64,000 nucleotides of DNA from Nodularia sp. LEGE 06071 (lineage in GTDB: Bacteria; Cyanobacteriota; Cyanobacteriia; Cyanobacteriales; Nostocaceae), in assembly GCF_015207755.1 (NCBI RefSeq), contig NZ_JADEWH010000004.1, forward strand, positions 248,001 through 312,000, read 5' to 3'. The position numbers were made by a program, and so were the translations under genes. This document shows, one piece after another, positions 6,425 through 64,000 of the stretch. The notes below the pieces were generated by a model. The model ran no database searches and was not told the DNA's origin. It saw nothing but the letters and a program-made list of their open reading frames with translations. Position 1 is the first letter of the stretch, and each line of letters starts with the position of its first letter.

Positions 6425-6439
6425 GTCGAGGAGTGTCAA
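6280..6439 (+). ncRNA. Probable TnpB guide RNA (omega/reRNA) region
   Basis: By analogy with characterised IS605 elements, the RNA overlaps the 3' end of tnpB and ends at the right-end hairpin (6411-6431), with the guide coming from host sequence just past the element (from about 6440). The hairpin is visible; the 5' boundary is a guess. Confidence 0.3.
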
Positions 6440-6578
6440 CGAACTATGAGTGTTTGTGTTCGCCTTAGCATCTGGGAAGGAGAAGAGAAGAAAATTGTTA
6501 GCGAAGCGTACACAGCGCTGCGAGTATTTTGGATTAATTCCGCCCTGAAGGAGCGGGGGTTGTACCGAAAATTCCCAA

Positions 6579-6608
6579 TCCAAAATCTAAAATCCAAAAT
6601 CTAAAATT
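6579..6608. repeat. Heptanucleotide tandem repeat (AAAATCY type)
   Basis: About four units of a 7-mer alternating AAAATCT and AAAATCC. The same motif occurs at 16022-16050 and, inverted, at 45222-45253. This is the STRR class of repeat known from heterocystous cyanobacteria. Confidence 0.6.
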
Positions 6609-6614
6609 TTTCGG

Positions 6615-6887
6615 TCATTTTGCTTCCAGTTCTGCATCAAGTTGCTGGGAATATTCCTCATCTGTGCCAAGTTCACGACGTTCCACAAATTCCATATTTA
6701 TAGTAGACAGCAGTTCGTTACTCGCCTCAAAGTCTGCATGGAGTTGCTGATTATAGTCCTCAATTCCAGTCTCTATATAAGACAGTAGTTCTTCTGTATT
6801 CGGTTTGTTTTTATACATATCAGCAAATTTTATGCAAGAGTGTTCAAGAGGCTCAATCTCCCCAATAACTATTGTGGCTTTCTCCAA
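6615..6887 (-). CDS. Small hypothetical protein, doubtful
   Basis: 90 codons with no ATG; the only start is TTG at 6887, and the frame is closed by a TAA about 20 nt further up. The product is acidic and helical with a repeated pattern (NQQLHADFEA and SQQLDAELEA), suggesting an internal duplication. No family recognised. It lies between the TnpB element and the MITE and has no evident ribosome binding site, so it may be the remnant of a longer gene rather than a working one. Confidence 0.3.
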   Translation of the reverse strand: MEKATIVIGEIEPLEHSCIKFADMYKNKPNTEELLSYIETGIEDYNQQLHADFEASNELLSTINMEFVERRELGTDEEYSQQLDAELEAK

Positions 6888-7032
6888 CTGCTTTTGGAGA
6901 AATTGCTCTTAACTTCTGTCAAATTATAGATGCCTAAGTAGGTGCGTTAACTAAATGTAACACACCCAAACGTCTAATTTAAACTATATCCTAGCAAAAG
7001 GAATTTGTTTGACATACCTCCTCTTCCTGAAT

Positions 7033-7179
7033 GCTACGGTGTACATACAAGTCCTGCCTGTCTGCGTTTGAGCCTGTTTAGCCCCCTAAATCCCCCAAGT
7101 TTGGGGGACTTTGAAAATTCTTGTTCCCCCAGAATTGGGGGTTAGGGGGCGATTCGATCACTTGTGTGTACACCGTAGC
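7033..7179. mobile_element. MITE, family R1, copy A
   Basis: 147-bp non-coding element with about 20-bp terminal inverted repeats: GCTACGGTGTACATACAAGT at the left end, and the reverse complement with one mismatch at the right end. Inside, GCCCCCTAAATCCCCCAA pairs with a second inverted repeat ending in GGGGGC, so the whole element can fold into a long hairpin. It is flanked by a perfect 9-bp direct repeat TTCCTGAAT (7024-7032 and 7180-7188), a target-site duplication. Further copies are at 18192, 52068 and 61683. Confidence 0.85.
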
Positions 7180-7312
7180 TTCCTGAATGAGAGAGGATTC
7201 CTTAACGCTTCATTGGGTCGATGCTACCGAAATAGTCTTACCATCCCTCGACGTTCATTTAAAGTCTCCCAATGCCCTATGGCGACTAGATTTATTTTAC
7301 CAGAAAGCCGTC

Positions 7313-8971
7313 TTAAAAAGATGGGGCTTGTATCCCGTTATTCTTGGTCAAATTTGCCAAGAGCTTAATTTTAAACTCATCCTCAAACACTGGTTTTTTA
7401 TAATCTAAACTCCAGAGTTCTAAGGCGCATTCATCATCAGGTTTTGAAGGAAAAATCAACATTTTAAATTCCTGGCTATCAGGATGATATTCACAGTTGA
7501 CACGGGCAATCGCCCCAATTTGTCGCCTATCCAATGCAACTGCCAATCTCAACAGCGCACTTAATTGGCTGACTATTTGTCGATGTTCTTTACTCAGCAA
7601 ATTCCGGTAATTTTCGTGTTTCTTCTTGGGCTGTGATTTACGGTGATAACGCGCTAAATTAGCAATGATTTCAATCTCGGTTTCGGTATAGCCGAGTAAT
7701 TCACTATTGCGAACTAGATAGTAGGAATGCTTGTGGTGAGACGAATGGCTAATATAATGCCCGCAATTATGTAAGATGGCCGCAGCCCATAACATTTGTC
7801 GCTCGTTGACTCCCCAATTGTGTAACTTCCCTTGGGTTTGGTCAAATAAACTCATGGCAAATAAGGCCACGCGATCGCTATGTTCTAAATTGATATGATA
7901 CTTGTCAGCCTGTTTCAGAACACTCCGTTGACGCACCGAACCTTGATAGCGCAGTCTATCTTCAATCAAACCGTGGGCTAGCATCCAGTCCACAATCACG
8001 CCTTCCCGGAGAGCGCGTCCGCACACCGTCACTGAATCCACACCTAACAAAGTCATGGCTTCCTGTAAAATGACAGCGCCAGCCAAGATCACTTCCGATC
8101 GCTTATCTGGCATACCGGGTATATTAGCAATCTCCGAGTTAGTCATTTTCCGCAAGCGATATACCCAATTCTGCAAGTCCTTCAGGCTGAACTCGTAACC
8201 ATTAAGGGTAGAAGGTACAGTATCTAAATTTTCTCGTGCGTGAATCATGGCCAGGGTTTCGATCGTCCCGGAGGTTCCCACCAAACGAGGAGATTCACCT
8301 AACTGGATATTTGCTAGCACATCCTCCACAGAACGTTCTAGCATCCCACGTGTGTAGGCTTGCAGGTATTGAAACTCGGCATCGCTGATGGGGTCTTTAG
8401 TGATGTACTCGCTGGTGAGTCTGACTGCACCCACTTTTGTACTGGTGAGACTGCGGGCTTCTTGACTGTCCCCCAAAATTAATTCTGTAGAACCACCGCC
8501 AATATCAACCACGATATGGGGTTGGTTGTTAAATTCCATCCCCGACAGTACACCAAGGTAGATGCGTCGCGCTTCTTCTTGACCAGAAATCAAGTCAACG
8601 CTTAAACCTAATTCGTCTTCTACTCTGTGCAGAAAATCTTTACCATTGGGGGCTTCTCGCACAGCGCTAGTTGCTACTGCGATGATTGTTTCAGCTTTGG
8701 CTGTTTTGGCAACTTCTTGAAAGCGTTTGAGGGCGGTAATCGCCTTGTCAATGATTTCTGGTTTCAGTTCTCCAGTAGCGATATCACGATTACCCAGTCT
8801 GACGGTTTCTTTTTCTTTGGCAATAATCCGAAACGATGGTAGCGTCGGGTCAATCTTTACTACTACCATGTGCAGGGAATTAGTTCCCATGTCAATGGCA
8901 GCAATAATCCGGTTTTGCTTAACTGGTTGAGTGCTAACACTTTCCCAGCTAGCTGAAACTAAATTCAGCAT
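7313..8971 (-). CDS. ppx: Ppx/GppA phosphatase family protein with HD-like C-terminal domain
   Basis: 552 residues. The N-terminal half is an actin-fold (ASKHA) exopolyphosphatase/pppGpp phosphohydrolase domain: phosphate-1 loop AAIDMGTNSLHMVV (about 24-37), GQEEARRIYLGV, and phosphate-2 loop VVDIGGGSTELI (about 147-158). The C-terminal half is HD-like (WAAAILHNCGHYISHSSHHKHS), but the classical HD pair reads HN here. It should hydrolyse polyphosphate and/or pppGpp in the cytoplasm; the two activities cannot be separated by sequence. It is divergent from the solanesyltransferase gene. The ATG at 8971 gives the family's usual start. Confidence 0.88.
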   Translation of the reverse strand: MLNLVSASWESVSTQPVKQNRIIAAIDMGTNSLHMVVVKIDPTLPSFRIIAKEKETVRLGNRDIATGELKPEIIDKAITALKRFQEVAKTAKAETIIAVATSAVREAPNGKDFLHRVEDELGLSVDLISGQEEARRIYLGVLSGMEFNNQPHIVVDIGGGSTELILGDSQEARSLTSTKVGAVRLTSEYITKDPISDAEFQYLQAYTRGMLERSVEDVLANIQLGESPRLVGTSGTIETLAMIHARENLDTVPSTLNGYEFSLKDLQNWVYRLRKMTNSEIANIPGMPDKRSEVILAGAVILQEAMTLLGVDSVTVCGRALREGVIVDWMLAHGLIEDRLRYQGSVRQRSVLKQADKYHINLEHSDRVALFAMSLFDQTQGKLHNWGVNERQMLWAAAILHNCGHYISHSSHHKHSYYLVRNSELLGYTETEIEIIANLARYHRKSQPKKKHENYRNLLSKEHRQIVSQLSALLRLAVALDRRQIGAIARVNCEYHPDSQEFKMLIFPSKPDDECALELWSLDYKKPVFEDEFKIKLLANLTKNNGIQAPSF

Positions 8972-9457
8972 CTAGTGTTCTCTCAATAAAGGAAGGACTT
9001 TAAAAATGTAGTGCATCGGGGTGTTTAGGACTGTAGATATTCAATAAATGTATTCTGAGTCTGACTATGTGCAAAGGCTATGTGATCTCAGAATAGATAC
9101 CTGAATACCGACCAATTCGGCGAATAACTGCAAAAAGACTTAAAAAATTGTGTTTGGGCGATCGCCAAGGAGATTCAGACACAAACGGATAAGTAGGTTG
9201 GCGTAAATAAAGTTAACTGGCTAGGGTCGTCATTTGTCCTTAGCCCTTCGGCTACGCTCAGGGTAAATCATTGGTCATTAGTCACATTGGGAAGTCACAA
9301 TTTTTCCCCCCTGCTCCCCTGCTTCTTCCCCCACTCCCCACTCCCTACTCCCTACTCCCCAGCTATAAAGGTGATACTTTTACAAATATCAAATAACGTT
9401 ATTCTATAGATGTAAAGATGTGTGAATTCATCTATCTAAAGTTCTTACTTGATTTCT
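8972..9457. other. Intergenic region between divergent ppx and 4-HB transferase genes
   Basis: Contains repeat R3 copy 1 (9163-9240), a short palindromic scrap (CCCTTCGGCTACGCTCAGGG, about 9243-9262) and a C-rich tract of CTCCC words at about 9305-9360. The remaining 95 bp before the gene should hold its promoter. No ORF or RNA gene seen. Confidence 0.5.
9163..9240. repeat. Dispersed repeat, family R3, copy 1 (78 bp)
   Basis: Begins CGCCAAGGAG and ends TCGTCATTTGTCCT. A second 78-bp copy in the same orientation, differing at only a handful of positions, is at 10519-10596, on the other side of the solanesyltransferase gene. Confidence 0.75.
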
Positions 9458-10345
9458 ATGCTGAATCCTTACAAAAGTAAACAGGAACCTGTATGGCTAA
9501 CTATTATCCGGCTTTTGCGGTGGCATAAACCAGAAGGACGATTAATTTTAATGATTCCTGCCCTTTGGGCTGTATTTTTAGCAGCCGCTGGAAAACCACC
9601 TTTACCTTTAGTAGGCGTAATTGTCTTAGGTACTTTGGCCACGAGTGCGGCTGGTTGTGTAGTCAACGATTTATGGGATAGGAACATTGATCCGGAAGTA
9701 GAGAGAACACGAAATCGACCTCTGGCTTCTCGCGCCCTGTCTATCAAAGTCGGAATTGTGGTCGCTATTATTTCCCTAGTATGTGCAGCAGCACTCGCTT
9801 TATATCTTAACCCCTTAAGTTTCTGGTTATCTGTGGCAGCTGTACCAGTAATTGTGCTTTATCCCGGTGCAAAGCGAGTATTTCCCGTACCGCAGCTGGT
9901 ACTTTCCATTGCTTGGGGTTTTGCGGTTTTGATTAGCTGGAGTGCTGTCACACAAACTCTTTCTCAGCCAACTTGGCTATTGTGGGGCGCGACTATATTG
10001 TGGACATTAGGATTTGATACAGTTTATGCTATGAGCGATCGCGAAGATGATCGACGCATTGGCGTGAATTCCAGCGCTTTATTTTTTGGTAATTACGCCC
10101 CTCTAGCTATCAGCATTTTCTTTGTTAGTACAGTGATTCTACTAGCTTGGCTAGGTATATTGATTCATCTGAAAATAACCTTTTGGGTTAGCCTCGCAAT
10201 TGCTACTATTGGCTGGACTTGGCAGTGTTTACGTTTAAGAAACCAAGACCTACCCAACCCTGTGTATGGTGAAATCTTCCGCCAAAATGTCTGGATTGGT
10301 TTTATTTTACTGGCGGGAATGATTGCCGGATCTATTTTAGCGTAG
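9458..10345 (+). CDS. 4-hydroxybenzoate polyprenyl (solanesyl) transferase
   Basis: 295 residues from ATG 9458 (a TTG at 9449 is in frame but less likely). It is an integral membrane UbiA-family protein with about eight or nine helices. Motif 1 is NDLWDRNIDPEVERTRNRPL (about 70-89, the NDxxDxxxD prenyl-diphosphate site). Motif 2 is the acidic cluster in AMSDREDDRRIGVNS (about 190-204). In cyanobacteria this enzyme couples a polyprenyl diphosphate to 4-hydroxybenzoate in plastoquinone synthesis (slr0926 type). The gene is framed by two direct copies of a 78-bp repeat. Confidence 0.88.
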   Translation: MLNPYKSKQEPVWLTIIRLLRWHKPEGRLILMIPALWAVFLAAAGKPPLPLVGVIVLGTLATSAAGCVVNDLWDRNIDPEVERTRNRPLASRALSIKVGIVVAIISLVCAAALALYLNPLSFWLSVAAVPVIVLYPGAKRVFPVPQLVLSIAWGFAVLISWSAVTQTLSQPTWLLWGATILWTLGFDTVYAMSDREDDRRIGVNSSALFFGNYAPLAISIFFVSTVILLAWLGILIHLKITFWVSLAIATIGWTWQCLRLRNQDLPNPVYGEIFRQNVWIGFILLAGMIAGSILA

Positions 10346-46067: not shown

Positions 46068-47726
46068 ATGTCTAATGTCAATAGTCAACGCTCATTGTTT
46101 GGTTTCTTGGTAGCTGGTGCGATCGCACTACTGATCATGTCCGCCGGATTATACTGGTTTTTCGCCAAATCTCCGGTTAACCTCCTGGCCTCTACCTCTA
46201 GTCCCAATGCTGCTATTTTCGTGTCAAAATTGGCTCCGGTGACGGTTTCGCTGCTAACGAATCCTGAGCGATTGCAATCTTTGGAGCGTCAAGGTGAATT
46301 ATCTCAACTCAAAACCAGTTTATTGGCTAAGAGTGGCATCAATTACAAACAAGATATTCAGCCCTGGCTAGGAAATGAAATTACCCTCTCCGTCACGACT
46401 GTAGATATTGATCGCGACGCGGAGAATGGACGACAGCCAGGGTATCTCATGGCGCTAGCAACTGATAAACCAGAGAAAAGCCGCGAGTTTTTAGACTTGT
46501 TATTTTCTCGTAGGGTATTGGCTGGCGCAAATTTGGCTGTTGAGGAATATGAAGGCGTAAAGCTGATATCTGACTCCCAACCACAGCCGGATTCCCTAGC
46601 TGGTGCAGTTGTCGATGGCTTTGTCTTATTTGCCAATGATCGGTCGGTGCTGCGAGATGCAATTAATAACGTCCAGGCTCCTGATTTAAATTTGTCCAGT
46701 TCGTCTCAATACCAAAAAGCCACCCAACAACTGCCTAAAGCCTCCCTAGCAACGGCTTTTCTCAATCTTCCCGCCGTGGCCGAATGGCAAGGTTTAGAAT
46801 TACCAGAAGCAATCTTCCATAGCCAAATTATTTCTTTGTCGTTGAACTCCAAGGGACTGCTAGCAGAAACTAACTTTCTGACTGATTCGGAAATTATCCC
46901 GGCTTCTGCACCACTTTCTCAAACTGTAAAGGCGTTAGAATATATACCAGATGCGGCAGGTTTGGTGATTTCCAGTTCTCATTTAGACAATTTGGGTAAA
47001 AGTGATTTAGCCCAACTCTGGACACAAGTCAAAACGGCGCTCTCTGGTTCTGGAACTGATGCAATTTCTACCTTGGTAAAACCTTTGGCAGAAGTTCAGA
47101 AAAGCCAGGGGATAAATTTGGCAGAGGATATCTTTAATTGGGTAAAAGGAGAATATGCCTTAGCGGTGTTACCCCATGCTGGAGAAGGCGCTGCTGGTTG
47201 GGTGTTTGTGGTGGAAAAATTAGAGGATGTCCCAGAAGGAATTTCGCGTTTAGATGCGATCGCCTCGTCTCGTGGACTCAGTATTAGTTCTTTCAACTTG
47301 AATCAACAAAAAATCTTTGCTTGGACAGAGTTAAATGCTGTCAGTAAAGAAACTGAGACTAAAGCCAGCCCAGCATTTGCTATTGAGGCTAAAGTTCAGG
47401 GAGTACACACAACTCTCGGAAATTACGAAATTTTTGCTTCTAATTTGGAAACTTTGAACGAAGTCATCACCACCAAGAAAGGTTCTTTGATTAGCGATGA
47501 CAATTTCCAAGATAGTATCGCTACTATTCCCCAACCCAATCAGGGCTATGTCTATCTCGATTGGACAAAAAGCAAAACCCTCTTAGAGCGTCAACTACCG
47601 ATTTTGCAGTTAGTGGAAGTAGTGGGTAAACCATTTTTTCAAAATTTGCGATCGCTCACAATCAGCAGTTACGGTCACGAGAAAGGATTACTCAAAGGCG
47701 GAATCTTATTCAGACTTGACCATTAA
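46068..47726 (+). CDS. DUF3352 family membrane-anchored protein
   Basis: 552 residues. An N-terminal anchor (about 12-33) follows a short cytoplasmic tail; the rest is exported. The DUF3352 core shows NAAIFVSKLAPVTVSLLTNPERLQ, NYKQDIQPWLGNEITLSV and GYLMALATDKPEKSREFLD. It is a cyanobacterial surface or periplasmic protein of unknown function. The divergent start lies 171 bp from the rhodanese gene. Confidence 0.85.
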   Translation: MSNVNSQRSLFGFLVAGAIALLIMSAGLYWFFAKSPVNLLASTSSPNAAIFVSKLAPVTVSLLTNPERLQSLERQGELSQLKTSLLAKSGINYKQDIQPWLGNEITLSVTTVDIDRDAENGRQPGYLMALATDKPEKSREFLDLLFSRRVLAGANLAVEEYEGVKLISDSQPQPDSLAGAVVDGFVLFANDRSVLRDAINNVQAPDLNLSSSSQYQKATQQLPKASLATAFLNLPAVAEWQGLELPEAIFHSQIISLSLNSKGLLAETNFLTDSEIIPASAPLSQTVKALEYIPDAAGLVISSSHLDNLGKSDLAQLWTQVKTALSGSGTDAISTLVKPLAEVQKSQGINLAEDIFNWVKGEYALAVLPHAGEGAAGWVFVVEKLEDVPEGISRLDAIASSRGLSISSFNLNQQKIFAWTELNAVSKETETKASPAFAIEAKVQGVHTTLGNYEIFASNLETLNEVITTKKGSLISDDNFQDSIATIPQPNQGYVYLDWTKSKTLLERQLPILQLVEVVGKPFFQNLRSLTISSYGHEKGLLKGGILFRLDH

Positions 47727-47798
47727 TAGCAGAGAATAGGGAGTTATCAAGTCTCCCCTCTCCTTACTAAGGTTGGGGGTGAGGTTCTTTATTAAAGG

Positions 47799-50700
47799 TC
47801 AAACTGAATCATCCAACGCATCTACTAACAAAATGCTGTTGAGTAGATTTAATTCACTAGAGGCGAGAAAATAGCGATCGCTAAAAATAGTTTCCAATTG
47901 GCTAAAAACCCTCCGCCCAGCCACAGCCGCCCAAGGAAATTTTTTATATTGTGGAACTACAGGCATAACCAAACCTTGTGGTGTTAAACTTCTTCCTAAA
48001 GTCTTCTTCCATGTATCGGGTTCTTCTAACACTTGTTTTGGACTATCATCGTCTGAATCTTTCCGCCAAAAATGAGGATAATCAAGGGGAATACTCACAA
48101 CAATATTTTGTGTTCTCAAACTTTGGAGTGTGGAATATTCTAAAGTTGATTCTTCCTTTTCTCGAATTAAAAGTTGATGTAATTCCTTCGCCGGACGTTT
48201 GAGTTTAGGTGGAAACTTGCCATTTTTATCTTGATAAATTACTCTCAGTAATCCTAAAAGTTGCTGGCTATGTTCTTGAATATATTTCCGCCATCCTTCA
48301 AAACTAAATTTTTCCTCGGTGCGGCGATTAGACCAGTCTTCCATCCAGAAAGGACCAATACAGGTTAAATAATCAGGAATTACTAAATTGGCATTTTCTA
48401 AAGATGGTAATAACAGACTTAAAGGTGTAGATACAGCTATGATAAAAGCTTCCAAATTAGCATAATCTACATAAGATTTGGCTTGTCTATCACCGATATT
48501 ACCCTTTAATGTAAACTCAGCAAAGATTTGTCGCGTTAACATCTCTGCTTTTTTGACAATACCTTTCTCCTCTTCTGATTGATGATCATAGACAAAAACT
48601 CGTGCTTCTTGCAAAAAAGTCCAGACATCATCAGACATTAAATTTAATAATTCTTCATCCCCAACTGACCCCACCGGGACTAAAGCCAGACGCTGGTTTT
48701 TCAGTCCCGCATCCCCTTTAATCCGGGTGTGAATTGTAGAACGTAGCATCATCAATAAAGTTAATAAATCACTAGATTGACGTAACCAGCGCCTTGAGTT
48801 ATCAATATCCTCCTCTACAACAAAACCATCATTAATCAGCATTACCAATCGTCTGGCTTTATCATCTCCAGAAACTAGCGTTTTTGTCTCAGGATCTGTA
48901 TACATTCCTCGACCTCGATAGATAAGTTGCGCGACTTCCATCAAAGCAGCTTCTATGTTAAATCTAGGAATTGCGGCAATAATCCAATCAGTTTTGGGAA
49001 AAGAAACACCTCTAGCCCCTGAAGAAGTCATTAAAAAAACGCGGATTTTATCTCTTTTTTCTTCTTGGACTAATTCTAATCGCTTGTTAGGAGGTACACT
49101 TTGATCTAAGATTTCCACTTCAGAATTTTGACAAAGAGCATTTTTACCCCCTATCAATTTCTGCTTTAATTGACGTAAAAAGGCTTTGTCTTGGGCAAAG
49201 AAAATTAATTGCTCTGCCCCTGCTTTTAACCCACGTTCAATTTCTTTGTAGGCGTTATTTAATAATTCTTCGTCTAATGTAGCTCGTATTGCTTGACGAA
49301 TTTGTTGTTGAATATTTGTTTTGATTAGCTTCGGTGTGATAGGTGAAAGGCGGATACTATATTCAATATTAAGTTGAGAAGCCGGATAGCTATTAGTCAT
49401 GATATGTAATACTGGGTGTTTTCTCAACCCAATTTTGATATCAGTACCCGTAACGCGAAATGGCGCTTCCCCTTGAGTTGGACTAATTAATACTTTATCA
49501 GGGGCAGAATCCCCCGAATTAAGATAACTATTCAGGACTATTTCATTACTTAAAGAAGCATCAGCAATAATCAGAATTACTTTAAACGGTGATTGACTTC
49601 CTTCAAAAGGTTCAATAAACTGTTGCTGCAACCAATCTGCTAATTTATGAACAAATAGCGCCCCTGCACCATCACCAGCCAATTCATCAACCATTGCGAT
49701 GATAGTAGGGATTCTGGCTGCAAAATTGCGGCGTTCTTGTTGTCCTGGTTTGGTATGAGCTTTTTTAGCAAATAAATTTCCTAAAGCATCAATTGTAGTT
49801 TTTTGATCCAGGTGTCGATAACCTTGAATTGCTGCTGTCATCACCAGATGATTTACTTGGGGATTGTGTTCTAATAATTTACGGGCGGAACTGGCAAGAG
49901 TTCGGAATACACCGGGACGAGGTATTGATTCTACGCTGTCTTCTCGTTCATTGCGACGACGTTTAAAGCGGCCAGAAGGGACTCCGTTACAATCAATTTC
50001 GTGTTCCTGTTCAGGGGTTAAAAAAATGGTACTACCATCAGGATAATTTAAGTTTGTGATGCCATCGACAACTACTGCACTATCTACACAATGTTTCTTA
50101 CCTTTTGGCTGCATTTCTTCGTACCACTCAGGCGCTGTGGCAATTAAATGAGCATTAGTAGTAATGGTTAAAATATCACGGTGATTTTCATGTTTTTTGG
50201 CAAGTTTGGCGGTGACATCCCGATTAATTACCACTCGTGGACTGAGATAAATAAACATAAAACCTTCTGACTGTGCTTCCAGAAATTTAATCACAGCGGT
50301 GGTTTTACCAATTCCTGGATTTCCTTCTAAAGCAATAACATTCAGCCTTCCAGTTTGGGCAGATTTCAGACCAGTAATAACTGCACTTTCATGGATTGTT
50401 CGCAGAGGAATTTGTTCTGGTAGGTGTTGAAAGATGGATTGAAAATGAACCAGAGGACTACTACCAAAGAATTTATGCAGCGATTCTGTTGTTTCAATAT
50501 TGGCGATCGCATCCTGCTGAGAAAATTCTTGCATAGGGTTGTAGAAACCTGTCACCTGTTCTGTAAATTGGTAGTGCAGTGACGTTTCTGAATTAGGTTT
50601 TTGCCTGAGTTGCTTGGCTTGGCGCTCAAAATCCGAGGGAAGCGATCGCACCAATTTATTAAAGGCTACACGGATTTCTGTTGACAGTGCATCAGGTTGG

Positions 50701-51671
50701 TCATCTAATTTGCGGGTGTGGCGATATGCTTCTCCTAGAGATGTCATCAGCTTAGTTCTAGGATTTGGTTCTGATTCTTCAAAAAAATGGGCAGCAATAC
50801 TTTCACAGCCATTGGAAGTAATAGCGATCGCTCTAGCACTACAACCACCCTCTAACCGTCCTTGTTTTCTTAACAAATTTATCAGCCGCTCAGTATAAGA
50901 TGAGGCTTGACATAACTTAAACAAAGGTTTATCCAAACCACTGAAAGCTGCCAGGTGATTTTTCAGACTTGACGAAAACAAAAATTCCCCACCTTCCACC
51001 TCAGCACAAACCCTAGAAAAAACACCTCGTGAATCAATATAACGAGCATAACGGCTCATTTCCTCTCGGTGAGCAGCTTCTGTGGTAAAGTCTGCCAATT
51101 TTGCCGGCGCATTATAGGAAAACTCCAAACACAGAAGGAAATGCTCAAACTTTTGTCTGGTATTCTTTCCACTCGATAACCAAAGCAAAAAATCTGCTCT
51201 TGCTGGTTGTCCTGTTGTGACTAATCCTAAATCTGGTTGTCCAGCGAGATTAAAAGCCGCCTTAAATTCTTGTGCTGTTTTCTCCTTTTCCGCTTCACGT
51301 TGCATCTGCTGTGCCGGAAGCATCAACGGACACCAAATAGCTGCCAACTGTGGCTGACGGACTGGTACATACTTGAGGCATTCCCGCATTGCTGTCCAGC
51401 CTAACCCATAGCCCAATCCCAGCAGATGACGCACCATTGAGCCAACCCATGCTTGAGCATTTGGATCGGTCAACTTCAGAGTTTTCACCAACTGGCTATA
51501 GATGTCTGCATTCTTGACCTCTTGCCAAGGTTTCAGCAGCAGATGTTGGTCACTAAGTAACTTTTGATGAATCAGATTTTGCAGAACTCCGCGTTTGACA
51601 GCAATTTCAAACACCTGTCCCCATATAGATGCTTGTTCTAAAAATGAACTTTGCTTAACTTCCTGTTCCAT
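47799..51671 (-). CDS. Large SF2 helicase-like protein, system candidate gene 1
   Basis: 1290 residues from ATG 51671; the frame runs 48 codons further up, but that part comes from a repeat-like sequence and is not plausible protein. Walker A is ALEGNPGIGKTTAV (450-458). A Walker B candidate is IIAMVDELAGDGAG (about 657-670); VILIIADASLSNE (698-710) could be motif III. IFFAQ near 823-827 is a motif IV-like strand. TSSGARGVSFP (882-892) is motif V-like, and VAQLIYRGRGM (913-923) is motif VI-like, as in DinG/XPD-type helicases. An N-terminal segment at about 159-185 (ADFLLW...LLCLEFS) resembles a nuclease fold. No close family recognised. It lies downstream of the 1062-aa gene on the same strand, separated by 615 bp with a MITE. 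Confidence 0.75.
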   Translation of the reverse strand: MEQEVKQSSFLEQASIWGQVFEIAVKRGVLQNLIHQKLLSDQHLLLKPWQEVKNADIYSQLVKTLKLTDPNAQAWVGSMVRHLLGLGYGLGWTAMRECLKYVPVRQPQLAAIWCPLMLPAQQMQREAEKEKTAQEFKAAFNLAGQPDLGLVTTGQPARADFLLWLSSGKNTRQKFEHFLLCLEFSYNAPAKLADFTTEAAHREEMSRYARYIDSRGVFSRVCAEVEGGEFLFSSSLKNHLAAFSGLDKPLFKLCQASSYTERLINLLRKQGRLEGGCSARAIAITSNGCESIAAHFFEESEPNPRTKLMTSLGEAYRHTRKLDDQPDALSTEIRVAFNKLVRSLPSDFERQAKQLRQKPNSETSLHYQFTEQVTGFYNPMQEFSQQDAIANIETTESLHKFFGSSPLVHFQSIFQHLPEQIPLRTIHESAVITGLKSAQTGRLNVIALEGNPGIGKTTAVIKFLEAQSEGFMFIYLSPRVVINRDVTAKLAKKHENHRDILTITTNAHLIATAPEWYEEMQPKGKKHCVDSAVVVDGITNLNYPDGSTIFLTPEQEHEIDCNGVPSGRFKRRRNEREDSVESIPRPGVFRTLASSARKLLEHNPQVNHLVMTAAIQGYRHLDQKTTIDALGNLFAKKAHTKPGQQERRNFAARIPTIIAMVDELAGDGAGALFVHKLADWLQQQFIEPFEGSQSPFKVILIIADASLSNEIVLNSYLNSGDSAPDKVLISPTQGEAPFRVTGTDIKIGLRKHPVLHIMTNSYPASQLNIEYSIRLSPITPKLIKTNIQQQIRQAIRATLDEELLNNAYKEIERGLKAGAEQLIFFAQDKAFLRQLKQKLIGGKNALCQNSEVEILDQSVPPNKRLELVQEEKRDKIRVFLMTSSGARGVSFPKTDWIIAAIPRFNIEAALMEVAQLIYRGRGMYTDPETKTLVSGDDKARRLVMLINDGFVVEEDIDNSRRWLRQSSDLLTLLMMLRSTIHTRIKGDAGLKNQRLALVPVGSVGDEELLNLMSDDVWTFLQEARVFVYDHQSEEEKGIVKKAEMLTRQIFAEFTLKGNIGDRQAKSYVDYANLEAFIIAVSTPLSLLLPSLENANLVIPDYLTCIGPFWMEDWSNRRTEEKFSFEGWRKYIQEHSQQLLGLLRVIYQDKNGKFPPKLKRPAKELHQLLIREKEESTLEYSTLQSLRTQNIVVSIPLDYPHFWRKDSDDDSPKQVLEEPDTWKKTLGRSLTPQGLVMPVVPQYKKFPWAAVAGRRVFSQLETIFSDRYFLASSELNLLNSILLVDALDDSV

Positions 51672-51914
51672 AAAACTAATCCAAATCCTTGAAAAAAAGG
51701 GCGTTGCTGATTGAAAATATGAATTAGGCTCACGCAAAGGCGCATTCGTTGAAAACGTTCCCGTAGGGTAGGCGCAAAGGTAGGAAGAAAAATTAAGGTA
51801 ATTTTGGCATTTCATACTTTAGTTCAGCAACGCCAAAACAAGAATTGAAATGTGAATCTTGCAGAACCCTCATCAGGAAAATGAGCGAACCAAAACCACT
51901 CCTTCTGCTCTCTC

Positions 51915-51966
51915 TGTGTCCTCTGCGCCTCTGCGGTATGCGCTACGCGCACGCTACGCGAACGTT
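51915..51966. repeat. Dispersed palindromic repeat, copy 1
   Basis: Starts TCTGTGTCCTCTGCG and runs through GCGCTACGCGCACGCTACGC to AACGTT; a close copy is at about 60259-60302. Confidence 0.55.
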
Positions 51967-52067
51967 AAAAAAACTGACTAAAAAATTGGGTTATATCAAG
52001 TCCGTTTGAAGACTTACGAAACACGAAAACCTGCCAAACCTTTGCTTTATCTCCCCTCCTCGCTTGC

Positions 52068-52212
52068 CTACGGTGTACACACAAGGGATCGAATCGCCCC
52101 CTAACCCCCAATTATGGGGGAACCAGAATTTTCAAAGTCCCCCAAACTTGTGGGATTTAGGGGGCTAAACAGGCTCAAACGCAGACAGGCAAGACTTGTG
52201 TGTACACCGTAG
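52068..52212. mobile_element. MITE, family R1, copy C (inverted orientation)
   Basis: About 145 bp, inverted relative to copies A and B: it starts CTACGGTGTACACACAAG, the interior reads CCCCCTAACCCCCAATTATG..., and it ends ACTTGTGTGTACACCGTAG. Flanked by direct repeat CCTCGCTTGC (52058-52067 and 52213-52222). It interrupts the space between the two large genes. Confidence 0.85.
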
Positions 52213-52286
52213 CCTCGCTTGCGGGGAGGGGTTGGGGGTGGGGTTTTATGATTGTGGTAATCCTAACTAATTAAACAGACATAATA

Positions 52287-55200
52287 TTACTTCCTGCGGT
52301 GCAGAACTTGAGAAATATGAGTTAGTAAAGCCGGATAGCTGAGATACACCTTACCTTTGCGCCGATTATGTAATACTTCCACCTCTCCCGCCGCCTCAAC
52401 AGTATTTGGTGATATCCAACGAAAAGGATCTAAAACGGGAATCAGTTGTCCACGTTCCGCTTCAATAAAATGTAACCCCCGCAAAACAGCAATTAAGCAA
52501 GGATTAACAGGAGAATTTTGCTCTGCATTCACAAGATGTTGGCGAGCGCGTTCTGTCCAAGTAATATCACTTACCCGTTGGTCAGACACTAGAAAATAGA
52601 CACAAAAACCAGACTGTGGCCGTTCCTGTTCTTGAACTGCAAACAGTGTCGCAAAAGTGTAAACCGGAATTACATCTCGCACCCGAACAGTTTCTACAGA
52701 ATGCAAAAAATTAGTGTGATCTGCTGCGTGTAAAATTTCAAATGCAGCTTCACCTTTAGCGCGGTTTTGTAATCTTGTCGCTGGGAATACATCCCGCAGC
52801 ATAGTATAAATATTTAAATCAGGAAAAGTTTGAAAAACATCTTCTAAAAATTCCTTCGGTGTTAAAGCCGAATTGTAATCTGCTGTGCGGTTAAACCTGC
52901 GACCACGATAAGCATGAGACAGCAAAATAATATGCTCACAGCCTTGGTTTTTTAGATAACGAATTTCTTCTTGTACTAAGCGTTGCTTTTTCAACTGTTC
53001 TGGAGAATCAACAATATCAGACTGGATTCTTTCCGCTTTGAGTTCATAACCAGAAACAGGATTAACTACAGCAGTAGCAGTATAACTTTGAGTTAGAAAA
53101 AGATAACCTTTTTCTTCTGGATTTAAGTCAACAGCCTCATTACAAGGACGAGTTGCATAGGAAATTAAACCAATTTTTGGTACTTCTGGAGGTACTGGTG
53201 TACTAATAGCCAAAGGAAAAGCACTTAATAAAGCATTAAAAATATTTCCTTTTATAAATTTAGTACTTTTATTCTGTTTAGCCAAATTGTCGAGAATAAC
53301 TCCTTGCATTCTGATATTAGTATCTTCAGCTAATATCGCTTCTAAAGTTTGGGCTGCTGCATAGACGTAATTATCACCACTGGTTTCGTCAGTAGTTTTA
53401 CCTTGCTCTTGGAGTCGTAGCATTAAGGTAGTAAAATCAGACTTCCTGCTTTGGTTTAATTTATCAATAATCCGCCATAAACAGCAGTAAACCAATACTG
53501 TAAAAGCAGCAACAGCCGCCGCATGATATTGTTTATTTTTTTCATCCCTTTTTTGTTTGTTACGATTTAAAAGTTCAGCGTCATAATCAATGATGACTGC
53601 TGCTGGTAAAGTCCATTCTCCAACATGACCAGCATTGGGAGATAATTCATACTTCCATTGTTTTTCTTCTTTATTAAAAGAGAAAGAGCGAGGAACCCAA
53701 ATAATTTGCAGCAGTTTTTGTGTTAATAACCTTTGGGCTTGAATTGGATAGCTATCGCCTTTGGTTACTAAATCATGTTCAGAAATATCTGTAGTTACAT
53801 GAACAGAAAATAAAAGCCCTGGTGTTTCAGGAGTATTGCAAATTTCAATGTGTTTAAACCATTCGACATTTTCACGGCTAGTTTGAGGAGAACTTTTAAG
53901 TAAATCCCTGACTCCAGATTCTGCACCTTCTAAACGTGACCATTCAATAATGCTCCGTTTGACACAAATAAATTGTTGAGAAGATTGCTTTTGCACCTGG
54001 GAAATAACTTTTTCACCTTTGGTTTTGAGTACATCAATTAAACTAGAAGCAATTGTTTGCATTGAAGACTCACGTTTTCGTAAATCCGCTATAACTTGTT
54101 GGATATCTGTCTTAGAAGATGTTTTCATCTCTGTGATGATTTTTTCAACAAAATTAGGTAAAGCTTCTGCACTTATTCCTTCTTCATCTTTAAGAGGAAT
54201 AACAATTCTTAAAAAAATCAGTTCAGCTAGGCGACGACATACTCTCCAAGGGTTTTGGGCTACTGTTTTATCATCTGTTTTTAGTTCTTCTTCAATTTTG
54301 TCAAGTCGTGCTAAAAAAGCGGATTTCTGCTGCTCAGGATTATTACCATTAATCCGAAAGCGATAGCTAACCTCGCGGACTACCCCATAACTCGTTCCTT
54401 GCTGATTTCTGGTTTTTTCCTCGAAGATTTGAGTTTCCCATTCCGCCCAAACTGGGAGACAGTAATAGAAAGTTGCTTTATTCAAGTATTCTGATAAATC
54501 AAATTCAGCACCAACGCCAAAACCATCCGTTAAATCAACGCTGTAACCGACTTCTGTTGCAGATGTGAGTAAATTGCTGACACGATGGACATATTCTGCT
54601 AAAAGCTGGTGTTTGGGTTGACTATTCGTGGGACTATATTGAGCGATCGCCTCCATAATCCGCAGGGTAATTGTCTGTCTTACCCGTGCTAAGGCTTCAT
54701 CATCTAAAAAGTTAAGAAATCGAGTTAATTGGCTATCTGTTCTATCTCGCTCTGCACGTAAGCTATCAATAGCTGCTTCAATATCATCTTCATCCCAATC
54801 TAGCTGATTCTGCACATAGTCCCTAACTGCACTACACATCCGTTCAAAGTAATCATCAGCATCAATTTGTTCACGAGCTAAAATTACCTTGGCGACAGAC
54901 TTATTTTTGATATTAATCTTAGCCTCAGCATCAGGGAAAGCAATCGGCACAAGGTTAGCTGTTTGTGGTTTATGCTGAAAATAAGCCCCTGTATTTTTTG
55001 CTAGTTGCTGAAGTTGTTTAATCGGTTGATCTAGCAACAGTGTTGACAATGAATTTTCTTGGGGTAATGCAGCCTCAAGCTCTTGATCAATAGCTGCTAT
55101 TAACTTATCTACAGCAGCAGATAGCCTAACTGTACTTTTTTCTGTTAAGTTACCACCAACCAGGGACTTAGTTCCAAATCCTGATAATTCCAAATCTTGA

Positions 55201-55475
55201 ATAAACCCGCTACCTTCTTCGGGGTTAAAAGCTTCTTTGAAATCTGATAGTCGAAATAGCCTCCGTAAAACTGCTGAACTACAAAGCCGTAACTGTTGCT
55301 TTTGACTATCGAAATCAAACGCCTGCTTGTAGACAGGATCTAAGCTAGTTATATTTGTTCTATTTTCTTTAGTGGGAATAGATTTAGCTAGTAATTCTAC
55401 CAGCGTTGCTAGGTCAATAGAAGGTTTAGGTGAGCTTGCCTGAATTTTGGCACTACCAATTTGATCTGACGACAT
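52287..55475 (-). CDS. Very large protein of unknown function, system candidate gene 2
   Basis: 1062 residues; ATG 55475 is preceded by AAAGGA. No family recognised. The first 300 residues are helical with charged segments (LDWDEDDIEAAIDSLRAERDR, residues 225-245). The middle (about 400-620) is mixed. One hydrophobic helix is at about 652-670. The C-terminal third (about 767-1062) is the most structured: IGLISYATRPCNE (768-780), YLFLTQSYTATAVV (791-804), GCEHIILLSHAYRGRR (845-860), LNIYTMLRDVFP (887-898), CVYFLVSDQ (958-966) and the end GKVYLSYPALLTHISQVL (1041-1058). Three strands, helix, strand, helix, strand suggest an RNase H/PIWI-like fold, but catalytic residues are not assignable. It is the first gene of the pair with the helicase. 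Confidence 0.7.
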   Translation of the reverse strand: MSSDQIGSAKIQASSPKPSIDLATLVELLAKSIPTKENRTNITSLDPVYKQAFDFDSQKQQLRLCSSAVLRRLFRLSDFKEAFNPEEGSGFIQDLELSGFGTKSLVGGNLTEKSTVRLSAAVDKLIAAIDQELEAALPQENSLSTLLLDQPIKQLQQLAKNTGAYFQHKPQTANLVPIAFPDAEAKINIKNKSVAKVILAREQIDADDYFERMCSAVRDYVQNQLDWDEDDIEAAIDSLRAERDRTDSQLTRFLNFLDDEALARVRQTITLRIMEAIAQYSPTNSQPKHQLLAEYVHRVSNLLTSATEVGYSVDLTDGFGVGAEFDLSEYLNKATFYYCLPVWAEWETQIFEEKTRNQQGTSYGVVREVSYRFRINGNNPEQQKSAFLARLDKIEEELKTDDKTVAQNPWRVCRRLAELIFLRIVIPLKDEEGISAEALPNFVEKIITEMKTSSKTDIQQVIADLRKRESSMQTIASSLIDVLKTKGEKVISQVQKQSSQQFICVKRSIIEWSRLEGAESGVRDLLKSSPQTSRENVEWFKHIEICNTPETPGLLFSVHVTTDISEHDLVTKGDSYPIQAQRLLTQKLLQIIWVPRSFSFNKEEKQWKYELSPNAGHVGEWTLPAAVIIDYDAELLNRNKQKRDEKNKQYHAAAVAAFTVLVYCCLWRIIDKLNQSRKSDFTTLMLRLQEQGKTTDETSGDNYVYAAAQTLEAILAEDTNIRMQGVILDNLAKQNKSTKFIKGNIFNALLSAFPLAISTPVPPEVPKIGLISYATRPCNEAVDLNPEEKGYLFLTQSYTATAVVNPVSGYELKAERIQSDIVDSPEQLKKQRLVQEEIRYLKNQGCEHIILLSHAYRGRRFNRTADYNSALTPKEFLEDVFQTFPDLNIYTMLRDVFPATRLQNRAKGEAAFEILHAADHTNFLHSVETVRVRDVIPVYTFATLFAVQEQERPQSGFCVYFLVSDQRVSDITWTERARQHLVNAEQNSPVNPCLIAVLRGLHFIEAERGQLIPVLDPFRWISPNTVEAAGEVEVLHNRRKGKVYLSYPALLTHISQVLHRRK

Positions 55476-55915
55476 ATTTACTTTATCCTTTACACCAGCC
55501 TGTTGACTGCTTCACTTGCTTCAACGATCAAGTTGGCACAAATGGAACCTTTCCATTAAATAACTTAAGTATAAGTAATTTGTCAAGTTATGGCAGCCCC
55601 AGGTATAGTCAGCTACAAAAATATCTGTGTTAATTACAACAATTTTCAATAAATTAGACCACCATCTAGAGACATTGCATACAACACTCTCCGAGGGGTT
55701 AAATTCCTTTGTGTATTTCATTTACCTGAAAATAGCTGTAATTGTGTAGCTCATCAAGCTGGTAATTGCCATAAACTAAATTCATCAACGTTTTGTGACA
55801 TTTTTACTTTGATCCCTACTGTGAAAGTTACCTATTGTCTAAAAATTTATCTGGAATTGTTGCACAATCAAATGTTGTATATATCATCAAGATAAAGCCT
55901 GTTGGAGGGCTACTT
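55476..55915. other. Intergenic region upstream of the large-gene pair
   Basis: Divergent promoters expected, leftward for the large gene and rightward for the secreted protein. AT-rich; no repeats or ORFs supported. GGAGGG lies at 55904-55909 as the ribosome binding site of the next gene. Confidence 0.5.
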
Positions 55916-58051: not shown

Positions 58052-60214
58052 CTACCACAGTAAAATTTGTTTTTTAACTTCTATAATATCTAAGTAATCT
58101 TCCGTAAACGCTTTTCTTAACAGGGAATGGGGGATAAATTGATCATATTTTTGCAATTCTGGAGCTTCTGCGGAACTGACTAAATGTTCTGCGGTAATTC
58201 TTTGTTCACACAATGAAACAAGTTCTGTTTGCAGAAGTTTAAATTTATCTTTACCTAATTTGATTGTTAAATAATAGGGATTCACCCCACCAATACTGTT
58301 AATTTCTAATGATTCTCGACAAAAGGAATTAAGCAACCTTTCCAAAGTCCGGTAAGCCACTGTACCCATCCAAGGAAAGATACAACATTTGCCTTTTTCC
58401 AATTGTAAAATATTTTGTTTATCTAATCCAGCATTTCGGATGATTTGCCGAACTAATTTTAAACGTTCTTGAGCATTCTTTTGTAAATAACTATATTCTA
58501 AATCTTCTAGTAATACTTGCCGCATTCTTTGCAAAACTCTGGTGTGAATACTACCACTACCACCACGCCAATAAATAGTAGCTTTACCTGCTACTTGCTT
58601 CACTAAAATTACCTTTTTTTTAAAGTCAACTTCTAAAACTTCCCAAGTTCTACCTGCTAAGGCGAATTGATTACCCACAGGGGTTGGTATGGCAATACTG
58701 CCAATTTCCGTTGTTCCTTGCTTGACCGCATATTCTTGAATATCAGCAAAAACAGCATAAAACTGAAATTTCCCGACTATCTTTTCTCCTGCTAAACCAA
58801 TAATTAATTTACCTTGTTCTGTTTTATGAATGTGGTCTATATCAATTAAATAGTGTAATAATGACTTAAAATCTGCTGAAGAAATAGCCGCAAAGGGTGA
58901 TAAATTTAAAATTTGTTTAGCTAAAGCCGCAGGTGTAATTTCTCCTGTTGCTGCTAAAATGCTCATTGTCTGATGATATAGCAAACTCAAAGGATATTTA
59001 ATCGGTTCTATCGGTTCAATCCAACGTTCTTCTAAATAAAGTTGAATAATGGCAATACATTGTAAAAGTTGCCAAGGAATTTGTTCGGGTAAAGGTGCTT
59101 CAGATAATGGTTGATTTTCCCCACAAATCAAGCGCATATCAGCAGCTTCACCTCTCCGACCACTGCGTCCTAAACGTTGTAAAAAACTAGCAACAGACAA
59201 AGGTGATTCTAACTGAATGACTCGCTCTAAATGACCAATATCTATGCCTAATTCTAAAGTGAGAGTAGCCGCAGTCACCGCCGGATTGTCAGGTTCGCGT
59301 ATGGCATTTTCCGCAGCTTGGCGTAAGCTAGCAGATATACTGCCATGATGTACGTGATAGATGTCTGGTAATGCTTGTGCTTTAGCAATTCGGCGTAAGG
59401 ATGCAATTACTGATTCAGTTTGCGTGCGATTGTTCGCGAAAATTAAGCATTTACGAGATTTGCTGAGGTTAAAAATATATTTCTCGTAAGCTGTGGCTTC
59501 TGATTCATCGATTTCACTCTCAAGATAAAAGTGTTCTACAGCCAGTTTAATTTGGCGTTTTTCTGCGGTGATATCCGGAGTAATTACTGACTTGTCAGTT
59601 CCAGAACGTAACCACTCTTCAGCCATTGCATAATTACCCAGGGTGGCTGATAAACCAATGCGACGGGGTTGGGTTTTTGTCAAATTGGCTAAACGCTGTA
59701 ATTGACAAATAATTTGACAACCACGTTCAGAACCCATAAAGGAATGGATTTCATCAATGATCACAAATCGTAAATCACCAAATAAGCGCATCAAATCATT
59801 ATTCTTGTTAATTAACAAGCTTTCTAAAGATTCTGGCGTAATTTGCAGAATACCTTGGGGATTCTTGATCAGTTTATTTTTACGACTTTGTGCTACATCA
59901 CCATGCCAGTGCCACACGGGTATATCTGCTGTTTTCAGCAAGTCGTTGAGGCGTTCAAATTGGTCATTAATTAAAGCTTTGATCGGTCCAATATATAATA
60001 CACCGATAGTATTGGCTGGTTTTTCATGTAAGAGCGTCAAAACTGGTAAAAATGCAGCTTCTGTTTTTCCCGCCGCAGTTGCAGCCGCAATTAACAAATG
60101 AGCATCAGTGTTAAATATAACGTCACTAGCTGCTAATTGTACTGGTCGTAATTCAGTCCAGTTGTGATGGTAGATGTATTCTTGGATGAAGGGTGCAAGT
60201 TTGGAAAAAGTCAT
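58052..60214 (-). CDS. DEAD/DEAH-box helicase, Lhr-like
   Basis: 720 residues. Motifs: Q/I LRPVQLAASDVI, Walker A AAATAAGKTEAAFLPV, Ib ITPESLESLL, II VIIDEIHSFM (DEIH), III GLSATLGNYAM, IV LIFANNRTQTESV, V TLTLELGIDIGHLE, VI SFLQRLGRSGRRGE. The C-terminal 250 residues include a winged-helix/beta domain typical of Lhr-type helicases (ATP-dependent 3'-5' DNA/RNA helicase). The full SF2 set makes activity likely. Possibly in one transcript with the flavin protein. Confidence 0.93.
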   Translation of the reverse strand: MTFSKLAPFIQEYIYHHNWTELRPVQLAASDVIFNTDAHLLIAAATAAGKTEAAFLPVLTLLHEKPANTIGVLYIGPIKALINDQFERLNDLLKTADIPVWHWHGDVAQSRKNKLIKNPQGILQITPESLESLLINKNNDLMRLFGDLRFVIIDEIHSFMGSERGCQIICQLQRLANLTKTQPRRIGLSATLGNYAMAEEWLRSGTDKSVITPDITAEKRQIKLAVEHFYLESEIDESEATAYEKYIFNLSKSRKCLIFANNRTQTESVIASLRRIAKAQALPDIYHVHHGSISASLRQAAENAIREPDNPAVTAATLTLELGIDIGHLERVIQLESPLSVASFLQRLGRSGRRGEAADMRLICGENQPLSEAPLPEQIPWQLLQCIAIIQLYLEERWIEPIEPIKYPLSLLYHQTMSILAATGEITPAALAKQILNLSPFAAISSADFKSLLHYLIDIDHIHKTEQGKLIIGLAGEKIVGKFQFYAVFADIQEYAVKQGTTEIGSIAIPTPVGNQFALAGRTWEVLEVDFKKKVILVKQVAGKATIYWRGGSGSIHTRVLQRMRQVLLEDLEYSYLQKNAQERLKLVRQIIRNAGLDKQNILQLEKGKCCIFPWMGTVAYRTLERLLNSFCRESLEINSIGGVNPYYLTIKLGKDKFKLLQTELVSLCEQRITAEHLVSSAEAPELQKYDQFIPHSLLRKAFTEDYLDIIEVKKQILLW

Positions 60215-62604: not shown

Positions 62605-64000
62605 TTATAACTCTGGTGTGCTATCAGTCGGGGCATTATTTTCCGCGCCAAAGTCTGGTCTAGGTATGGGCGGTGGTGTGAGTGTTGGTGTGGTCAGTGG
62701 AATTTCTGTTGGTGTGGGAATAGGAATAGGAATGGGAGTTTCTATTGGCGTTTCCGTTGGCGTTGGTGTTGGGATGACTGGGTTTTCTAACACAACATCG
62801 AGACTGTAATCGCTTGCGGCAATTTCTGGTTCTGGAGTCAACTGAATAATATATCTCCCAGTCATCGGCAATATTCCCTCATAGGTTGTTACTTGCTGGG
62901 CATTAGGAGCAATTGGTTCTTGATTGACATCTAAAACCGTGAGCAAAATGCCATTTCCTTGGTTAATAAATGCCGTTAACTTGGCTCCTTCTTCCCCAAA
63001 AAATGTGTACTGAATGATTTGATTTTCTTTGATAGTGTCTTCAACTGTGGTTGTGTCAGATGCGGCAAATATCAGCCGTCTACTAAATATTACAGGTTCA
63101 ACACGGATGGGTGTGGGTTCTGGTGTAAGTTCTGGCGTGGTTTCTGGCGTGGGTTCTGGTGTGGGTGTTTCCTCGCCAGTCACAACTGGTGAAGGGAAAG
63201 TTTGTGGTGGCGTTACATCTGGTGGTTGATTTGACTGATTGCGGATAGAACTTACCAAAGCCCAAGAACCAACTCCCGCTAAAATTACTACGGCACTACC
63301 AATAGCACCCAGCGCCAATGGACTATCTAAAATTGAGTTAGACCGACTGGGTATAATCACTTGCTCAGGTTTGCGCGGTGCAACGGGCTGTGGTACTGAG
63401 TCGGGGGGACGACCGACAGCGATTGTTTGGAATTGGGAGACTTCTGGAGTCGGAATACGGGGTTTTTCCAGAATCTGTAATGCTTGAATGACATCAGCCG
63501 CACTATGGTAGCGATCGCCTGCATGACTACTTAACATCTGATTCAGAACTTGGGCAAATTGTGCATTCACCTTGACCCACTGTTGCCAATTCCAAGTGAG
63601 TTGAGTGACATCAAATAAATCAGTTGGTTCTTTCCCCGTCAACAAAACTATCCCTGTAACCGCTAGTGCATACAAATCACTATGAGGGTAAGCTTTTCCT
63701 GTTTGCATTTGTTCAGTGGGAGCAAAGCCTAATTTACCCACGCTAGTGATTGGCGTTGTGCTATCTGGAAACTGTAAACGCGTTGCTAGTTCTGTCACCA
63801 GTCCGAAGTCAATTAACACTGGCTGGCGATCGCCATCGCGCAAAATAATATTTTCCGGTGAGATATCCCGGTGAATAATCCCTCGACCATGAATATGCTC
63901 TAAAACTGGCAGCAAAGAGCGAATCAACTGCAATACTTCTGCCTCAGTGAAAGTTTGACCAGCCGCAAGACGTTCACTCAGCAGAGTCCGGTAAGCTTTA
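62605..64000 (-). CDS. Ser/Thr protein kinase, 5' part cut by window edge
   Basis: The frame runs off the window (upstream residues KAYRTLLSERLAAGQTF are visible beyond the first internal start). Catalytic loop HRDISPENIIL and VLIDFGL (DFG) are Hanks-type kinase motifs, and GKLGFAPTEQ is the APE-like segment. A transmembrane helix (LGAIGSAVVILAGVGSWALV) follows, then proline/threonine linkers and a beta-sandwich PPC-like domain near the C terminus, and another P/T-rich tail. It is probably a membrane-bound kinase with extracytoplasmic sensing; substrate unknown. Confidence 0.9.
   Translation of the reverse strand, partial: KAYRTLLSERLAAGQTFTEAEVLQLIRSLLPVLEHIHGRGIIHRDISPENIILRDGDRQPVLIDFGLVTELATRLQFPDSTTPITSVGKLGFAPTEQMQTGKAYPHSDLYALAVTGIVLLTGKEPTDLFDVTQLTWNWQQWVKVNAQFAQVLNQMLSSHAGDRYHSAADVIQALQILEKPRIPTPEVSQFQTIAVGRPPDSVPQPVAPRKPEQVIIPSRSNSILDSPLALGAIGSAVVILAGVGSWALVSSIRNQSNQPPDVTPPQTFPSPVVTGEETPTPEPTPETTPELTPEPTPIRVEPVIFSRRLIFAASDTTTVEDTIKENQIIQYTFFGEEGAKLTAFINQGNGILLTVLDVNQEPIAPNAQQVTTYEGILPMTGRYIIQLTPEPEIAASDYSLDVVLENPVIPTPTPTETPIETPIPIPIPTPTEIPLTTPTLTPPPIPRPDFGAENNAPTDSTPEL

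Follow-up and report, generated by a model that had tools for sequence, protein, structure and literature searches.

Two adjacent genes of Nodularia sp. LEGE 06071, here named BIG and HEL, probably encode a system of two proteins, centred on an Argonaute, for the removal of invading DNA, in which BIG would act as a guide-loaded but slicer-dead Argonaute and HEL as a helicase or helicase-nuclease. The genes are located in a window of 64,000 nucleotides (assembly GCF_015207755.1, contig NZ_JADEWH010000004.1, positions 248,001–312,000), whose own coordinates are used below. BIG, an Argonaute-like protein of 1062 amino acids (aa), is the upstream gene of the operon (52287–55475, minus strand), and HEL, a superfamily 2 (SF2) helicase of 1290 aa recognised from Pfam, motifs and a predicted model, is the downstream gene (47799–51671, minus strand). 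The longest HEL reading in the list of open reading frames (ORFs) covers 47799–51815 and comprises 1338 aa; the protein is taken as 1290 aa because its homologues begin at the internal ATG at 51671. An initial annotation of this DNA had pointed to two adjacent giant genes on the same strand, and both are indeed open over their full length, with BIG upstream.

Predicted Argonaute-like fold of BIG

The predicted model of BIG resembles Argonaute proteins in structural searches. All 50 matches listed by Foldseek are Argonaute/PIWI entries, as are 49 of the 50 listed by VIA, the remaining one being chain 7kpv_D of the yeast CKM, which we take to be Med13. At the level of the fold, BIG is therefore predicted to belong to the Argonaute/PIWI superfamily and to adopt a MID-PIWI fold. 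In Pfam, BIG has no significant match: Piwi (PF02171) is not matched at E ≤ 1, nor are the pPIWI-RE families, including the RNase H model PF13032, which was present in the library searched. In the genome scans with PF02171 and PF13032, G000 likewise matches neither model. PADLOC returns no match for either protein, NCBIfam only matches far under the cut-off for the pair in the window, and the PHROGs search nothing better than E 0.03, while PDB sequence profiles of BIG and of its distant clade give nothing useful. The Pfam check suggested by the initial annotation thus leaves BIG family-less and HEL with a generic helicase domain, and no housekeeping family claims either of them.

The putative pocket for the 5' end of a guide is marked by the MID-type motif Y705-x3-Q709…Q724-G725 (53301–53363, minus strand), recognised in the alignment and read as MID following PMC11096173. 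Q724 and G725 are kept in all 51 BIG rows of the alignment (A3) and in all 12 distant-clade rows. Y705 is present in 47 of the 51 BIG proteins, and position 709 is occupied by Q in 42 and by K in five; position 742 is K or R in 40. The following PIWI (RNase H-like) region, about residues 765–1062 (52290–53183, minus strand), is predicted to be catalytically dead. In a check of the DEDX tetrad, acids occur in at most one of 51 proteins at residues 767–776 and 849–856, the presumed sites of two tetrad aspartates, which were placed by eye from the secondary structure of the model and known Argonaute motifs. This pattern suggests that the PIWI domain of BIG has lost its catalytic acids.

Helicase core and N-terminal region of HEL

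In Pfam, Helicase_C alone exceeds the cut-off for HEL, accompanied by weak P-loop matches, and the PDB sequence profile retrieves helicase C-domains, P-loop proteins and unrelated weak matches. The SF2 core extends over about residues 420–1000 (48672–50414, minus strand), as indicated by Pfam, the motifs and the predicted fold, and the predicted model has a predicted local distance difference test (pLDDT) value of 87.2 over the first 1191 aa. The Walker and SF2-like motifs of the initial annotation are real: G450 and P452–T457 of Walker A, DE 662–663, DAS 704–706 and the motif VI residues Q915, Y918, R919, R921 and G922 are identical in all 44 aligned HEL proteins, that of the window included.

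A second conserved cluster, D160, E/D183-x-S185, K248, K252 and Q255-x3-Y259, is situated in the N-terminal region (50895–51194, minus strand) and was recognised from alignment conservation. D160, K248, K252, Q255 and Y259 are present in 44/44 proteins, as is E or D at position 183, and S185 in 43/44. From this cluster we infer that the N-terminal domain is a candidate RecB/Cas4-type PD-(D/E)XK nuclease with a displaced lysine. At the C-terminus, as judged from the alignment only, no D…(D/E)xK set is found among the listed invariant or nearly invariant columns.

Pairing, insertion and distribution

Both genes lie within one inserted unit (47718–55785). The initial annotation had regarded 7.7 kilobases (kb) as an insert, and 8.07 kb are in fact absent from the same place in 4/4 congeners, whose flanks are contiguous with 35–40 base pairs (bp) instead; the spacing between matches to the two flanking genes is 706–757 bp in these four, against 8.8 kb here. 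In G028 and G031, which also have the pair, the same flanking genes are 0.4–0.7 kb apart and the pair sits on a different contig. No integrase, transposase or other recombinase ORF was recognised on inspection of the ORF list across the insertion. Both genes are under purifying selection, with dN/dS of 0.18–0.28 for BIG and 0.13–0.20 for HEL against three relatives.

GTDB genomes were scanned with the HEL alignment up to a pattern limit, and the best 80 of 177 relatives were retained. The 79 loci obtained come from cyanobacteria, Chlorobi and three classes of proteobacteria (alpha, beta and gamma). BIG sequence occurs in 73 of these loci and adjoins HEL, with an open-frame gap of up to 300 bp or an overlap, in 69 of the 73, the exceptions being L070, L077, L084 and L092; by our own criteria, both genes are intact in 57 loci. 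The gene order is kept across the sampled phyla, and the gene ends overlap or abut. Six loci have no BIG: L064 begins inside HEL at a contig end, and L052, L053 and L071 hold a truncated HEL. The two genes, for which the initial annotation had proposed a test of joint recurrence, are nearly always found together, the intact orphan helicases of L040 and L065 being exceptions.

A set of 244 cyanobacterial genomes, which shares some genomes with the 79 loci, was searched with both profiles. BIG occurs in 36 genomes and HEL in 38, and no genome has BIG without HEL (Fisher p 4.5e-41, with the genomes treated as independent). The two HEL-only genomes carry HEL remnants, and G032, among the 36, has remnants of both genes. 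These counts leave out weak partial matches with E 1e-4 to 1e-3, namely BIG in G227 and G619 and HEL in G123, G182, G230, G640 and G644. In the cyanobacterial genomes, 34 of 41 BIG places are within 400 bp of HEL and three have no HEL on the same contig; larger distances are found in the window (636 bp between matches), G165 (475 bp), G043 (2 kb) and G228 (7.5 kb). Furthermore, the distances in the BIG and HEL trees, compared for 64 pairs, show a correlation of r 0.994, a value inflated by the deep split into two clades, and 0/999 permutations are as high.

Adjacency, the 36/36 co-occurrence, the matched trees and the site left empty in 4/4 congeners strongly support that BIG and HEL act jointly, as the initial annotation had supposed. 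Were they two unrelated selfish or accessory genes, together through shared mobility alone, they might also be found inside one insertion, as they are here; the kept order, the overlapping or abutting ends and the matched trees argue against this, and the co-occurrence brings it close to refuted, so that we regard it as highly improbable.

A second cyanobacterial version of the pair consists of a HEL of about 1220 aa and a partner of about 1010 aa, the latter being a BIG relative over most of its length (profile comparison, 99.6% probability, 938 columns). The genome of the window has such a distant-clade locus itself (L153, contig C13), where the BIG-type gene encodes 1008 aa (6738–9764) and HEL is reduced to an N-terminal piece of 247 aa (5867–6610). 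By eye, L153 adjoins a trpE-like gene, and another such gene lies downstream of the orphan HEL in L040.

Proposed defence role and mechanism

We infer a role in defence, which the initial annotation had also proposed, from the architecture, the patchy spread, the plasmid carriage and the neighbours of the pair. Among plasmid records, BIG is present in four and HEL in 11, those of HEL including conjugative cyanobacterial plasmids, while searches of viral contigs for HEL and of phage records for BIG found neither. In cyanobacteria, the pair is common (36/244 genomes) and, in the samples taken, more frequent than Pfam Piwi matches (17/194) and pPIWI-RE (6/194), the samples of this phylum differing in size. 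A different role would be that of an Argonaute-like regulator or repair factor, with BIG and HEL handling host R-loops and replication or transcription conflicts and having no part in defence. A helicase partner, the CKM chain 7kpv_D among the structural matches and the position of several copies beside housekeeping-like genes (by eye) would suit such a host factor, but the presence in only 36/244 cyanobacteria, the decayed copies, the plasmid carriage and the differences among congeners are unlike a core function, and we consider it improbable.

In the proposed defence mechanism, a small guide would be anchored by its 5' end in the MID pocket of BIG, and BIG, on finding matching DNA, would recruit HEL. 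HEL, with a core identified from its motifs and predicted fold, would then load on the displaced strand, translocate and unwind the DNA, and its N-terminal domain, a putative nuclease of RecB/Cas4 type whose lysine is displaced, may cut it. The target would most likely be plasmids or other incoming DNA. If the pair does eliminate plasmids, it could help to explain the poor transformability of some cyanobacteria, and an Argonaute-like protein missed by the Pfam, PADLOC and NCBIfam models tried would enlarge the known guided defence systems. In addition, the pair opens to direct test which guide is carried, how the own chromosome is spared and whether Argonaute–helicase pairs have originated repeatedly.

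Several observations weigh against this interpretation. The whole-chain TM-scores of the BIG model are low (0.16–0.23 of the query), and BIG has no sequence-level match to Argonautes in Pfam, in PDB sequence profiles or in profile–profile comparison with prokaryotic Argonautes (pAgos), a failure that is uninformative because canonical pAgos and pPIWI-RE do not match each other in this comparison either. NCBIfam ZorA2 is the only named defence family that BIG matches, at residues 435–508 and 16.9 bits against a cut-off of 700 bits. Conserved acids persist in BIG, with D779 in 39/51 proteins and D895, D919, E1007 and D1016 in both clades, so that a non-canonical active site is possible. The nuclease reading of the HEL N-terminus has no useful Pfam or PDB profile match, and in the loci L040 and L065 HEL is intact although BIG is absent from the stretch examined.

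Comparison with known Argonaute–helicase systems

In Vibrio cholerae, the dead Argonaute DdmE uses DNA guides to find plasmids and then recruits the helicase-nuclease DdmD, so that DdmDE, as is predicted for BIG and HEL, combines a catalytically dead Argonaute-like sensor with an SF2 helicase effector in two proteins (PMC12409362). The PD-(D/E)XK nuclease of DdmD is C-terminal, whereas the candidate nuclease region of HEL is N-terminal. Neither BIG nor HEL has a DdmD or DdmE match in PADLOC, which presumably includes Ddm models, in NCBIfam or in PDB sequence searches. DdmE and DdmD are not among the structural matches listed, including the 50 of VIA, and no conclusion follows from this.

In E. 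coli ST38, plasmids are eliminated by ApsAB, which pairs a helicase-nuclease with an Argonaute-like protein, and ApsAB-like systems are reported in some cyanobacteria (PMC11096173). BIG and HEL would, as predicted, have the same composition, and the conserved Q-G of the MID motif recurs in BIG. The ApsAB motif is given as Y-x3-K-xn-QG-xn-K (PMC11096173), in contrast to BIG, where Q instead of K predominates at the second residue (42/51, with K in 5/51). Furthermore, ApsB is described as being without typical PIWI and PAZ domains, whereas the BIG model has a PIWI match, and ApsA has Walker A at residue 218 and a C-terminal nuclease, whereas Walker A of HEL (450–457) follows a long N-terminal region. 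In the present pair, the extra domain is at the helicase N-terminus, and the Argonaute gene comes first.

The pair appears to work like DdmDE and ApsAB but to constitute a sequence family of its own, in which the domains are ordered differently, a distinction drawn from published descriptions and motif positions. Tentatively, and with rather less confidence than the defence reading as such, BIG and HEL may represent a third lineage of Argonaute–helicase immunity, in which a slicer-dead, guide-binding Argonaute is joined by a helicase with its own N-terminal RecB-type nuclease and a relocated catalytic lysine. The pair could instead be a divergent branch of the described ApsAB/DdmDE superfamily, which shares the same two-protein logic and the Q-G of the MID motif (PMC11096173); since ApsAB-like systems are reported from cyanobacteria, which PMC11096173 names, BIG and HEL may already lie in the tree of that paper. 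Against such a branch stand the differing Walker A and nuclease positions of ApsA and HEL, the contrast between the PIWI match of BIG and the description of ApsB, and the nine scanned of 10 weak gammaproteobacterial HEL matches, which are unlike ApsA or DdmD (two candidates per genome were scored). On balance, we regard it as rather unlikely, and a separate family is the reading followed here.

These weak matches come from a search of 274 gammaproteobacterial genomes with the BIG and HEL profiles, which recovered the known Acinetobacter pair; it scored two first-look candidates per genome, and the presence of ApsAB or DdmDE in the sample was not established. The other matches are weak and short, with BIG in five genomes (E 0.018–0.16) and HEL in 10 (E 2.6e-5 to 0.009). 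Nine of the 10 HEL matches, none of which is like ApsA or DdmD, and one of the five BIG matches were scanned. The proteins found look like a DEAD-box helicase, a histidine kinase, a KaiC/RadA-like protein, AAA/P-loop proteins and a P-loop protein carrying an LPD7 domain. With a degenerate DNA pattern for the published ApsA motif VI, 0/13 genomes matched in one sample and 4/369 in another; three of the four matches are in open frames of 196–354 aa and the fourth does not yield the peptide on translation, so none is ApsA. In four regions read from E. coli islands around Shango helicases, no pair of genes resembling apsAB is present.

The initial annotation had compared the pair with pPIWI-RE loci carrying a DinG-like helicase, an analogy that fits in kind but, by the profiles tried, not in family. 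A PIWI-fold protein beside an SF2 helicase, proposed to counter invading DNA (PMC3702460), is the arrangement predicted here as well, but BIG has no Pfam pPIWI-RE match, HEL has no DinG-type match, and the unit consists of two genes without the restriction endonuclease (REase) gene of the pPIWI-RE, DinG helicase and REase triad. The BIG profile reaches a probability of 0.2% against five cyanobacterial pPIWI-RE proteins, and membership in that family is unsupported by profiles, in a type of comparison for which the control of canonical pAgos against pPIWI-RE fails too. The long-B pAgos, which are long, catalytically inactive and found in operons with nucleases and helicases (PMC6299218), resemble BIG in length, predicted inactivity and the helicase partner gene; BIG differs in being missed by the Pfam Piwi model and in having a single helicase as its near-constant partner. 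No description of the BIG–HEL pair was found in searches of the open-licence PMC literature, and the words PIWI and Argonaute are absent from PMC10853773 and PMC12839542. Within that scope, the undescribed nucleic-acid system suggested by the initial annotation is supported, as a predicted Argonaute-like protein with an SF2 helicase.

Spacer, upstream region and neighbouring genes

BIG and HEL are separated by a spacer of 615 bp (51672–52286), compared with mostly about 100 bp or less among relatives. Its right part (about 52052–52251) is a repeat that recurs at dozens of sites across the genome, so that the operon has probably acquired a small repeat element by invasion. The region upstream of BIG inside the insertion (55476–55785), with its boundary set by the congener alignment, presumably holds the operon promoter. 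The labels of the flanking genes (hrcA, rhodanese, DUF3352 and cysE) are those of the initial annotation, made from the sequence alone.

Around 66 loci, 224 candidate flanking proteins were collected and 100 scanned, and the families given here are the first 25 listed per scan, out of 67 and 71. Among those listed are type I, II and III restriction genes, Mrr, HEC-01B and YhaV toxin, alongside ordinary metabolic families, as well as McrBC and GmrSD (at least two proteins each), NsnA (at least two), integrases (at least four) and RepB (at least three). As there was no control set of flanks, the defence-type neighbours are suggestive only, which also counts against the defence reading. The Acinetobacter loci L011, L072 and L074 share two further genes that come after the pair in the same orientation; the annotation of L011 gives them as HNH-domain and WYL-domain proteins, perhaps an accessory nuclease and a regulator. 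In L048, L051, L059 and L069, a small helix-turn-helix-like gene (by eye) is located beside BIG on the opposite strand.

Within the window, a BrxHI/SngC-type helicase is encoded at 58052–60214 (PADLOC SngC, 846 bits). Of four nearby proteins, three have no PADLOC match and the fourth has no SngA or SngB among the 25 of 33 families listed; the helicase therefore looks orphan, and a Shango/BREX reading was set aside. At 62605–63933, a protein of 442 aa matches the PADLOC PD-T4-6 models with its N-terminal part.
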